A stretch of DNA of 29,050 nt from a virus, in IMG/VR virus record IMGVR_UViG_3300030329_001281, positions 17,094 to 46,143 of that record; one strand, written 5' to 3'. The position numbers and the translations under genes were made by a program. The notes beneath the pieces were generated by a model. It did not search any database and was not told where the DNA came from. It saw only the letters and a list, made by a program, of their open reading frames with translations. Of this stretch, positions 1,453-9,917 are shown in pieces (positions within the stretch are counted from its first letter, which is position 1; the number at the start of each line of letters is the position of its first letter).

Positions 1453-1966
1453 CACTACTCGTATACATTGTATGTCTTTATACTTCGGAGAGTTAGATGA
1501 AATACAAACTTTCAATAATGAACCTTATGCTAAAGATCCAAAAGAACTACCTATGGGAAGTAGGTATTCCATCACCACGGCGATCAGTCACCTTGAAGTT
1601 GCTGACGTTATCATTGGTCATAATATCATTGGGTTCGATATACCTGTTATTAAAAAGCTCTATCCTTACTTTAATCCCACTGGGGTTATTATTGATACTC
1701 TTTTGTTATCTAGGTTATATCATCCGAATCTACTCGATATAGATAAAAGAAGTAATTATATACCTAGTAAATTATTTGGTCGCCACTCCCTCGAAGCTTA
1801 TGGACATCGACTTGGTGAATATAAGGGCGAATTCGGCATGACTACTGACTGGAAAGAATGGAGTCAGGAGATGGAAGACTATTGTACACAAGACGTTACT
1901 GTTACGAAAAAATTATGCGAACACTTCCGCCCCTACCTAAATGGGTCGCATTCGAGCATGAAGTAG
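1373..1966 (+). CDS. DNA polymerase, 3'-5' exonuclease domain (T7 gp5 N-terminal part)
   Basis: Proofreading half of a family A DNA polymerase, 197 residues. Exo I is FDLETNG (about 17-23), Exo II is HNIIGFDIP, and Exo III is the YCTQD stretch just before the frame ends. The segment with TLLLSRLYHPNL and GRHSLEAYGHRLGEYKGE follows T7 gp5 very closely. The start is GTG, with GAGG 9 bases upstream (1360-1363). Homology stops near residue 185; the last dozen residues look like frameshift read-through to a TAG at 1964-1966. The polymerase domain continues in the -1 frame, so this is either one gene broken by a one-base indel, or a truly split or frameshifted polymerase. The domain is certain; its status as a separate protein is not. 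Confidence 0.85.
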   Translation: MPNSKTKPIIGNGTIVFDLETNGLLNNTTRIHCMSLYFGELDEIQTFNNEPYAKDPKELPMGSRYSITTAISHLEVADVIIGHNIIGFDIPVIKKLYPYFNPTGVIIDTLLLSRLYHPNLLDIDKRSNYIPSKLFGRHSLEAYGHRLGEYKGEFGMTTDWKEWSQEMEDYCTQDVTVTKKLCEHFRPYLNGSHSSMK

Positions 1967-3177
1967 CGACTATTCTCACCCAACAAGAACAACATGGATG
2001 GTATTTTAATGAACGCGCTGCACGGGAACTTGAATCTTCTCTCAGAAAAGAGTATGAAGAAACTTGTAGCTTATTACGCAACAGGCACCCTTTCGTTAGC
2101 GGACCATTATTCACTCCTAAGAGAAATAATAGGACCAAAGGCTATGTCGCTGGTGCTACGTTTACCAAACTCAAGGACTTAAACCCTACATCACGAGATC
2201 ATATAGCATGGCTACTGATTCAACATTATGGCTGGAAGCCTTCATTAACGACATCTACGGGGAAGCCAGTTATAGACGAGACGGTATTGAAGGATATTGG
2301 GACGGATATAGCTCTCCATTTCTTGCGTCTACTCGAACTGACGAAGATGTTAGGGATGATATCAGAAGGCGTCAACGCATGGCAGAAGCTATCTACGACG
2401 TCTAGCAGAATACACCACCACTGCTCGGTGGCTACATCAACATTTAGAGCAGCACATCGTAAACCAAATTTAAGTCAAGTACCATCAGATGAAAGATTCA
2501 GGAAACTTTTTACGGCATCCCCTAACATGGTTATGTGCGGGGCTGACCTTAGTGGCATTGAGCTTCGAATATTATCCCATTATCTTGCAAGGTATGATGA
2601 AGGACGCTATAAAGAAATCCTTATCAACGGAGACATTCACCAAACAAATGCCGACAAAATTGGAATTACCAGGAGACAAGTTAAAACCGTTACCTATGCC
2701 TTCCTCTACGGGGCTGGGGATCGCAAAATAGGACACTCTTATGACAAACAACTATCTGACGAGAAAGCTGTCAAGAAAGGTAGAGAGATTCGTAAAGCTT
2801 ACGTCGAAGCTATCCCAGGGCTTAAAGACCTTTTGGAAGCGGTACGTAAGGCTAGTAAGAGAGGGTACGTTTTAGGATTAGATCAAAGACGTATCTTAGT
2901 AGATAAAGACCACAAAGCTTTAAACTACCTCCTCCAGGGGTCAGCAGCGTGTGTCGCAAAAATGTGGATGGTAATAGTTCACAATCATCTTTTACCTGAC
3001 TGTCATCAGCTTGCTTTTGTACACGATGAATTACAATATGAATGTAAACCAGAAATGGTAGAAGATTTGAAATTCCTGTTAGAGCTTAGTGCTGTACAAG
3101 CAGGAGAGTTTTATTCATTACGATGTCCAATCGCTGCTGAAGCAAAAAGCGGTATGAATTGGGCAGACGTACATTAA
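1915..3177 (+). CDS. DNA polymerase, polymerase domain (T7 gp5 C-terminal part)
   Basis: Catalytic half of a family A polymerase, in the -1 frame relative to the exonuclease domain. The frame is open from an ATG at 1858, but the residues encoded before about 1935 are an out-of-frame shadow of the exonuclease. The later ATG at 1915 is therefore my choice; neither start has a good ribosome site. Numbering from the 1858 ATG: motif A is GADLSGIELR (228-237, Asp230). The O-helix motif B is RRQVKTVTYAFLYGAG (272-287) with Lys276 and Tyr280, the latter at the E. coli Phe762 position. Motif C is FVHDE (387-391, Asp390). The end, NWADVH, matches the end of T7 gp5 (NWAICH). Joined to the exonuclease part it would give a polymerase of roughly 600 residues, shorter than T7 gp5 (704). 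The identification is certain; the start is not. Confidence 0.9.
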   Translation: MRTLPPLPKWVAFEHEVATILTQQEQHGWYFNERAARELESSLRKEYEETCSLLRNRHPFVSGPLFTPKRNNRTKGYVAGATFTKLKDLNPTSRDHIAWLLIQHYGWKPSLTTSTGKPVIDETVLKDIGTDIALHFLRLLELTKMLGMISEGVNAWQKLSTTSSRIHHHCSVATSTFRAAHRKPNLSQVPSDERFRKLFTASPNMVMCGADLSGIELRILSHYLARYDEGRYKEILINGDIHQTNADKIGITRRQVKTVTYAFLYGAGDRKIGHSYDKQLSDEKAVKKGREIRKAYVEAIPGLKDLLEAVRKASKRGYVLGLDQRRILVDKDHKALNYLLQGSAACVAKMWMVIVHNHLLPDCHQLAFVHDELQYECKPEMVEDLKFLLELSAVQAGEFYSLRCPIAAEAKSGMNWADVH

Positions 3178-8219: not shown

Positions 8220-9128
8220 ATGGCCGAACAAAATACATTTACAGTTGATACAACTCCACAAACAGAAACTGTTATTAGTAATGATGGATCAACAGAGGGT
8301 CTTACTCCAGATGAGCAAGACTCCTTAGCTGTTGGCGAAGAGATAACAGCCCAGCAAGAGAACTTACTTGCTGGTAAATATAAAAGTGCAGAAGAATTAG
8401 AGAAAGCTTATGTAGAACTCCAATCAAAATTGGGCGAAAAATCTGAGTCGGATTCAACTAAACCCGAAGCTGAAACAGAACCTGTTGAGCAAGAATCGTC
8501 TGAGGAACCTGTACTTTATTTAGAAGATGGAGGAGTTAATTATGAACAAGTCAATGCATCTTATGGAGAAAAGTTAGGAGATATATTTAAAAGTTCTAAC
8601 GTAGATCCATGGGAAATCAGTGAACATTTCCATAGTAATAATGGTACTATTACTAATGATATGTATTCTAAATTAGAAGGAGCTGGTTTATCCAGAGCTT
8701 CTATTGATTCATATTTAGCTGGTAGAGCTGTTGAGTCTGGATATACTACAGTAAGTAATGATATACCCGACTCTGCTGTATCAGAAGTTCAAGCTTCTGT
8801 TGGCGGAGAAGATTCTTATAAGAATATTATTAATTGGGCTGGATCTAATTTAGATCAACCAGCTATCGAAGCTTTCGATAATATTATTAATAGTGGTAGT
8901 GTTGAAGCTATCAAGATTGCTGTATCAGGATTGAAAGCTCAGTATGAAAATGCAAACGGATACGAAGGAAAAATGTACACAGGAAAAGCACCAACACAAA
9001 CTAGTGATGTCTTTAGAAGTCAAGCTGAATTAGTTAAAGCTATGAGTGATAGAAGATATGATGATGATCCTGCATATAGACAGGATGTTATTGCAAAACT
9101 AGACCGATCTGATAACTTACAATTTTAA
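8220..9128 (+). CDS. Capsid assembly scaffolding protein, T7 gp9-like
   Basis: An internal scaffold that guides capsid shell assembly and leaves before DNA packaging. It has 302 residues (T7 gp9: 307) and is highly acidic in the first half (repeated Glu/Asp between about 10 and 105), with the conserved LLAGKYKSAEELEKAYVELQSKLG helix-forming region (about 49-72). The C-terminal end is basic/aromatic (DRRYDDDPAYRQDVIAKLDR), matching the capsid-binding helix-turn-helix end of podovirus scaffolds, including the DPAYR-type motif. It lies between portal and capsid genes, although here the capsid is displaced by 2.7 kb of small genes plus hli and psbA. Confidence 0.93.
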   Translation: MAEQNTFTVDTTPQTETVISNDGSTEGLTPDEQDSLAVGEEITAQQENLLAGKYKSAEELEKAYVELQSKLGEKSESDSTKPEAETEPVEQESSEEPVLYLEDGGVNYEQVNASYGEKLGDIFKSSNVDPWEISEHFHSNNGTITNDMYSKLEGAGLSRASIDSYLAGRAVESGYTTVSNDIPDSAVSEVQASVGGEDSYKNIINWAGSNLDQPAIEAFDNIINSGSVEAIKIAVSGLKAQYENANGYEGKMYTGKAPTQTSDVFRSQAELVKAMSDRRYDDDPAYRQDVIAKLDRSDNLQF

Positions 9129-9132
9129 AACT

Positions 9133-9273
9133 ATGGGTAATGTAAAAAAAATCAAAACACATAAGGATGTTCAGTTACCTTTTGGTAGCGGTAAAACAGA
9201 TACAAGACCTTATGTTGCTAGACCACCTGTTAAGAAAGCAAGTTCACGTAAAGTTAATTCGGTAAATGCATAA
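9133..9273 (+). CDS. Micro-gene 1 of 4: 46-residue basic protein with shared C-terminal box
   Basis: ATG to TAA, 46 residues, strongly basic (many Lys/Arg, few acidic residues). It starts MGNVKKIKTHKDVQLPFG and ends KKASSRKVNSVNA. The last 13 residues are repeated in the next gene (KKASTRKVNEVNV) at exactly the same distance from the start. The stop overlaps the next start as TAATG. The four micro-genes from here to 9704 fill the region after the scaffold without gaps. No domain recognised; a virion-associated or nucleic-acid-binding role is only a guess from the charge. Confidence 0.7.
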   Translation: MGNVKKIKTHKDVQLPFGSGKTDTRPYVARPPVKKASSRKVNSVNA

Positions 9274-9413
9274 TGCCAGGAAAATCAGTTTTCTCTACAC
9301 CCTCTTTAGATAAACAAAAAAAGATACAAGATTATTTAAAGAATAATGATAAAGTATTAAGACCTAATACAAAAAAGGCTAGTACACGCAAGGTTAATGA
9401 GGTAAATGTATAA
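9273..9413 (+). CDS. Micro-gene 2 of 4: 46-residue basic protein, paralogue of micro-gene 1
   Basis: Same length as micro-gene 1 (46 residues), beginning MPGKSVFSTPSLDKQKK and ending KKASTRKVNEVNV. By hand alignment, the last 42 bases match micro-gene 1 at 33 positions, and five of nine differences are silent third-base changes. That is what selection on the protein would leave, and it supports both being translated. The N-terminal halves are different. Start and stop both form TAATG overlaps. Function unknown. Confidence 0.72.
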   Translation: MPGKSVFSTPSLDKQKKIQDYLKNNDKVLRPNTKKASTRKVNEVNV

Positions 9414-9583
9414 TGCCAGATCAACCATACTACGGCGATAAATATGACAAAGGCAAGGGGGGAAATAAACCAGGTGATAGACCTGCTACACCAGAAGAGT
9501 TACAAAAAATACGTGACATCTTAAAGAAAAATATTAAAAAAGCTAAAAGCCCTTACAGTGGGAAAGGTCCGAATAATGCCTAA
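9413..9583 (+). CDS. Micro-gene 3 of 4: 56-residue basic protein
   Basis: 56 residues starting MPDQPYYGDKYDKGKGGNK, with a central predicted helix EELQKIRDILKKNIKKAKS and a short tail. Rich in Lys, Gly and Asp. It begins with MP like micro-genes 2 and 4 and overlaps both neighbours (TAATG before; 8 bases with the next). No recognised domain. It lacks the KKAS box of genes 1 and 2, though it keeps a lysine-rich element at a similar place. Confidence 0.65.
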   Translation: MPDQPYYGDKYDKGKGGNKPGDRPATPEELQKIRDILKKNIKKAKSPYSGKGPNNA

Positions 9584-9704
9584 ACCAGATTACACAGGCA
9601 TACCTAATGCCTTCGATAAAAAAGTACGAGAATCAAAAGGTACTTCAGGTAAGAAAAAAATTAAAATCTTATTAGACGCAGCTGCTATATATCCTAAAGC
9701 ATAA
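9576..9704 (+). CDS. Micro-gene 4 of 4: 42-residue basic protein
   Basis: 42 residues: MPKPDYTGIPNAFDKKVRES, then GTSGKKKIKILLDAAAIYPKA. It overlaps micro-gene 3 by 8 bases and ends 8 bases before the hairpin that precedes hli. Basic, with one short hydrophobic segment (IKILLDAAAIY) too short to span a membrane. No family recognised. It is the last gene of the tiny-protein cluster between scaffold and the photosynthesis genes. Confidence 0.6.
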   Translation: MPKPDYTGIPNAFDKKVRESKGTSGKKKIKILLDAAAIYPKA

Positions 9705-9761: not shown

Positions 9762-9917
9762 ATGAACGATACAGAAGTTATCGCAATTCAACCTCCTATT
9801 GAATATACTATGAACGAGAACGCAGAAGTACAGAATGGCCGCTGGGCTATGATAGGTATCATCTCCGCACTCGGAGCGTACGCCACGACTGGACAAATCA
9901 TCCCCGGAATATTTTAA
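9762..9917 (+). CDS. hli: High-light-inducible protein (Hli/HLIP)
   Basis: A 51-residue single-helix member of the chlorophyll a/b-binding superfamily. It contains the signature ENAEVQNGRWAMIGIISALGAY at about residues 19-40, with ExxNGRxAMxG as the chlorophyll-binding core, followed by TTGQIIPGIF, the usual Hli end. These proteins sit in thylakoid membranes and protect photosystems by quenching or pigment storage. This copy was probably acquired from a cyanobacterial host. By eye its base composition is more GC-rich than the phage genes around it. It is co-directional with psbA, 0.4 kb upstream, and its stop overlaps the next start as TAATG. Confidence 0.95.
   Translation: MNDTEVIAIQPPIEYTMNENAEVQNGRWAMIGIISALGAYATTGQIIPGIF

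Follow-up and report, generated by a model that had tools for sequence, protein, structure and literature searches.

Comparison of four tiny basic genes, found in a row between the scaffold gene and hli of an uncultured marine cyanophage, with their counterparts in relatives points to a hypervariable cassette row of marine T7-like cyanophages, the products of which would carry a C-terminal docking peptide and may act in the head or in packaging. We give this reading a probability of about 45%. The shared C-terminal sequence (the tail) suggests a short address tag, and the remainders of the proteins (the heads) are interchangeable, Lys-rich and probably disordered.

The row and its flanking genes

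The window, i.e., the whole stretch of 29,050 nt that was analyzed, comes from the record of an uncultured virus (46,143 bases) and has the layout of a marine T7-like cyanophage. The genes include the scaffold, hli, the cyanophage outer-membrane-like protein (PF24653), psbA and a gene at the capsid position; terminase genes (TerS and TerL by PHROG) are upstream in the record, before the window. In the isolate collection, podoviruses of Prochlorococcus and Synechococcus come closest, with a DNA identity of ~70-78% along part of the region. The window ORFs 1373-1966 and 1858-3177, at the DNA polymerase position, overlap and resemble the annotated split exonuclease/polymerase ORFs of P-SSP7. The features of the row and its borders are listed below; L numbers denote loci, and L138_1, for example, is a row gene of locus L138.

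8220..9128, + strand: scaffold (gp9-like) gene, conserved left border of the row (PF05396, E=1e-14; phrog_1052; border from L088/L138)
9133..9273, + strand: tiny gene 1 (ORF1), 46 aa, pI 10.8, head related to L138_1
9232..9270, + strand: tail of gene 1, KKASSRKVNSVNA (direct repeat, tail survey)
9273..9413, + strand: tiny gene 2 (ORF2), 46 aa, pI 10.2, head related to L040_4
9372..9410, + strand: tail of gene 2, KKASTRKVNEVNV (direct repeat, tail survey)
9413..9583, + strand: tiny gene 3 (ORF3), 56 aa, pI 9.7, orthologue in L079
9576..9704, + strand: tiny gene 4 (ORF4), 42 aa, pI 9.9, tail-less, orthologue in L079
9714..9738, + strand: conserved hairpin in the hli leader, just past the right row border (covarying pairs, 12 relatives)
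9762..9917, + strand: hli, first conserved gene right of the row (phrog_178, E=1e-19)

The four ORFs of 46, 46, 56 and 42 aa described in the initial annotation are real, and are joined twice by TAATG and once by an 8-base overlap. That annotation had named frameshifts in related genomes as an argument against them; none was found, and the frames are open and under purifying selection, with pN/pS values of 0.19 for the ORF1 head, 0.41 for ORF3 and 0.34 for ORF4. A protein search with ORF1 against 50,697 phage records (isolates) gave no match. Profile searches gave no match for ORF1 and ORF2, DUF6321 and phrog_16028 included, and only weak unrelated matches for ORF3 and ORF4, again with neither of these two families present.

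A direct repeat of 48 nt, at 9232 and 9372 (81% identical, spacing 140), takes in the stop codon and the TAATGCCAG of the next gene. The two tail boxes are indeed 140 bases apart and differ at 9 bases, 5 of the 9 changes being silent, as first reported. Over the 13 codons of the boxes pS is 0.58 and pN 0.13, and replacements this few occur in 1.5% of random placements. ORF3 ends in GKGPNNA, a looser Asn-rich tail. The tandem duplication of 140 bases that had been proposed did not hold up: only the ~13-residue tail is common to the two genes, and neither 33-residue head is a copy of the other. We reject duplication of such a unit because the heads have separate relatives, L138_1 for ORF1 and L040_4 for ORF2. 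The equal length of ORF1 and ORF2 is a coincidence or a by-product of cassette exchange.

Variability of the row in relatives

Two scans with the scaffold protein yielded about 150 related loci. In about 120 relatives the gap between the scaffold gene and hli, omp or psbA is between ~20 and ~2000 bases long, with 0-7 tiny basic genes in it. The 232 non-redundant row ORFs have a median length of 54.5 aa and a median pI of 9.9, with pI >9 in 92%; many are tail-less. Purifying selection acts on the heads as well (pN/pS 0.12-0.62, ten pairs).

Alignment of loci L088 and L138 shows 96.9% identity over 3,279 aligned bases, up to 7 bases beyond the scaffold stop codon. No similarity is found between the two rows, and an identity of 98.7% resumes where the row ends. 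Gene content thus differs between the conserved flanks of close relatives, as in a hypervariable cassette, and at the level of sequence the alignment shows that, from the end of the scaffold gene to the hli leader, rows are swapped as whole blocks.

The hairpin in the hli leader (GGCGA...TCGCC) is kept beside differing rows, with compensatory changes in 3 of its 8 pairs among 12 relatives; an Rfam search around hli and the hairpin gave no credible family. Small basic proteins with the DUF6321 and RGLYANI domains follow the scaffold in uncultured phages (rows L017, L025, L032 and others), are found near terminase genes in the isolates P-GSP1 and Syn5, and in PHROGs correspond to domains at the end of much larger proteins. 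In P-SSP3 (L083) an unannotated short ORF past the scaffold stop codon (MPKGKGTYGTKKGRPPKK), a possible remnant of a row, has its match in the gene that opens the rows of L013 and L018. The rows of L003 and L004 hold a larger gene downstream of the scaffold (6172-6747 in L003, 191 aa), which by eye only looks like a 2-oxoglutarate oxygenase.

Occurrence and conservation of the C-terminal tail

A search for the box at the same locus in other cyanophages, as had been suggested, shows that the tail recurs in many uncultured relatives. Its core is N-x-V-N-[A/V/E]. NxVN is found in the last nine residues of 38 of the 232 non-redundant row ORFs, as against 6 of 10,957 other sequence windows in the same proteins, a C-terminal enrichment of ~300-fold. 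When heads were clustered without the last 13 residues, with a composition correction for Lys-rich proteins, 102 clusters were obtained and the strict tail is present in 25 of them. Among the isolate genomes examined, P-SSP7, P-SCSP-R27W, P-GSP1, NATL1A-7, S-CBP4 and Syn5, the tail is absent. A pattern search of the whole collection for a tail with an overlapping start returned 21 stretches, most of them chance frames; the real ones are small genes of cyanophages. A quick tree of the scaffold requires a minimum of 16 changes in tail state, or 9 when only starred branches are trusted.

Two further genomes have neighboring genes that share a tail, with sequences unlike that of the window. In L138, two adjoining genes end in AKHKN[RK]PKPHDQSVNA, with 7 silent changes and 1 replacement in 16 codons, and in L040 two genes end in NQTLDH[RK]A, with 3 silent changes and 1 replacement. 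Pooled over the pairs from the window, L138 and L040, pS is 0.68 and pN 0.07, although the low pN is partly built in, since tails were partly picked by their residues; of the pairs, that of the window was initially detected at the DNA level, and that of L138 is extreme. In strict tails, all four codons are used for Val, both for Asn, and codons from both boxes for Ser. Compared with the rest, the tail differs modestly in its use of Val codons (P=0.004) and not clearly in that of Asn codons (P=0.10). Thus the pS and pN values, and the use of all four Val codons, argue that the peptide is conserved and not the DNA. The initial proposal of one C-terminal tail on differing N-termini, kept as peptide, is borne out; conservation of the tail at the DNA level was considered and rejected on the codon diversity and silent changes.

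Among tagged genes, tails within one genome are more alike than shuffled ones (P=0.0035), a result that is suggestive only, as the sample consists of 11 genomes; the N-termini are not more alike (P=0.28). Over all row genes no within-genome likeness of tails was detected (P=0.26). Recombination within the genome, a common partner or the two together may account for the match among tagged genes.

Separate exchange of heads and tails

Heads that are related do not necessarily have related tails. The ORF1 head is related to that of L138_1, whose tail is PKPHDQSVNA, and the ORF2 head to that of L040_4, whose tail is VNQTLDHKA. One head is found with three tails in L040_2, L088_2 and L090_1, and one tail is found with two heads in L138_1 and L138_2. 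In a comparison of L043 with L053 the scaffold end is conserved and the gene 1 heads are unrelated, and the DNA is identical from CCTAAGAAAGCGAAG, in the tail, to past the stop codon. The L079 tail resembles window ORF1 in its 5′ part, and ORF2 with the ORF3 start in its 3′ part; this hybrid apparently fits a crossover within the tail, with the loss of one gene. These comparisons show that heads are exchanged separately from tails, and that one tail serves differing heads both within a genome and between close relatives.

Possible function of the tail

Tiny basic genes with such tails are also found outside the window in the same record (L085). A 49-aa gene at G000:C1:7509-7658, ending in KKGPNKVNET, overlaps the large terminase gene at its start; another 49-aa gene at G000:C1:3853-4002, ending in KRDPKREANA, is directly before the small terminase gene. 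A tail is likewise found before TerS in L103 and L195 and before TerL in L200; L103 also has the related ending GNVND before TerL. Of the 81 loci searched, a minority have a tailed gene beside a terminase. Protein searches gave no match for the L103 tail gene and its 516-aa neighbor, and chance-level matches only for the terminase-flanking tiny genes.

The neighborhood of the row points to head assembly or packaging, since there is also a tailed gene next to a terminase gene; the two genomic positions, both among head and packaging genes, and the high basicity of the proteins are in favor of such a role. As a docking peptide, the tail would, late in infection, direct several of the small basic proteins to a single partner that they have in common, the site of action most likely being head assembly or DNA packaging. 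There the basic heads could act on DNA, for instance, or recruit additional factors. Rows are exchanged as blocks, sometimes apparently with a crossover within tail DNA. The scaffold protein is weakened as a sequence-specific partner, since the scaffolds of L088 and L138 are near-identical and their tails differ, all ending in [SN]VN[AV]; a scaffold partner would therefore have to read only [SN]VN[AV]-COOH. A wider reading is more tentative: a modular cyanophage address system, in which a common C-terminal tag would make tiny effector or packaging proteins interchangeable, although they are unrelated, and would deliver them to a single phage or host hub, the tag being matched within the block and recombination in tag DNA plugging on new heads.

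A somewhat doubtful alternative is that the row encodes small host-targeting effectors built of short motifs, in which the tail would bind a protein common to the hosts and the heads would carry further motifs, for example for clamp binding. The heads of relatives are enriched for QLx[LI][PF] (14 of 215, as against 0.25 in shuffles) and for [AS]PYxx[YFW] (14 against 0.1), and exact QLSLPL is present in L123_2 and L162_2. Differing tails beside near-identical scaffolds fit a partner outside the phage backbone, and the fast exchange of genes suits an arms race. However, no clamp motif of the QLxLF or QLSLPL type was found in the window ORFs, and the genes are among the head genes, not in the early region. 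It is improbable that a host protease instead recognizes the tail at the C-terminus, as a degron or trimming site, keeping the proteins short-lived or processing them. Tails are at the very C-terminus and mostly end in small A, V or T, but they do not appear to end in the ssrA-like LAA or RRKKAI, and in the window and L138 pairs the constraint extends ~10-16 residues inward. Degron-type signals usually need fewer residues than this.

Two other explanations would leave the tail without a function as a peptide. It could be what is left where recombination replaces heads and keeps the downstream DNA, with intragenomic recombination making neighboring tails alike; breakpoints at the start of the tail (L043/L053) and apparently inside it (L079), and the exchange of whole rows, agree with this. 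Silent changes between tails are, however, far above replacements, the codons are diverse, and tails persist on the last genes of rows and at another site in the genome, and we regard this account as unlikely to be correct. The tail stretch could also be a translation signal for the next gene, by start overlap or Shine-Dalgarno sequence, the peptide arising by chance. In the window, each of the two tails leads into TAATG, and the ORF2 tail contains a Shine-Dalgarno-like GAGGT. But the central codon is variable, with GAG in only 3 of 38, and tails are present on the last genes of rows with no start close behind (L138_2, L041_3, L003_4, L043_4 and L133_3). Since last genes have it, the tail is not a start-site effect; translational coupling as a general cause is contradicted, and a translation signal of any kind has very little probability left.

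Relationship to known systems

Hypervariable cassette loci are already known. The hypervariable accessory loci of tailed phages (moron-like, metaviromic islands) likewise have variable small genes, conserved flanks and exchange between close relatives; in contrast to these, members of the row described here have a selected C-terminal peptide in common, and their heads are exchanged independently of their tails. In the moron sense each cassette has its own promoter and terminator; the genes of the row overlap or abut. By analogy, there is also a likeness to the internal proteins of T4: the small basic products of genes near the head genes could be guided by a short peptide. In T4 the capsid-targeting signal is at the N-terminus and the prohead protease cleaves it off, whereas the shared peptide here is C-terminal. 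Proteins of PF19846 (DUF6321) and phrog_16028 (RGLYANI) are found in the same rows of many relatives and are similar in size and basicity; they have no NxVN tail, and the four window ORFs are outside both families. In the open-licence full-text papers searched, no description of a cassette row with a shared selected C-terminal peptide and interchangeable heads was found.

QLSLPL is the hexapeptide by which Hda binds the sliding clamp (PMC3836487). The two row proteins of relatives that have it exactly are candidate clamp binders, in contrast to the window ORFs, which do not have it. Motifs of the clamp type, QLDIF among them, were also observed in further row proteins of relatives, such as L069_1 and L159_1.

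Tiny accessory genes of marine phages are numerous, and a function is known for almost none. A tail common to unrelated heads provides a handle on them, and a pull-down with the tail peptide could name the hub of many such genes. The locus also shows gene-fragment exchange around one short peptide in uncultured ocean viruses.
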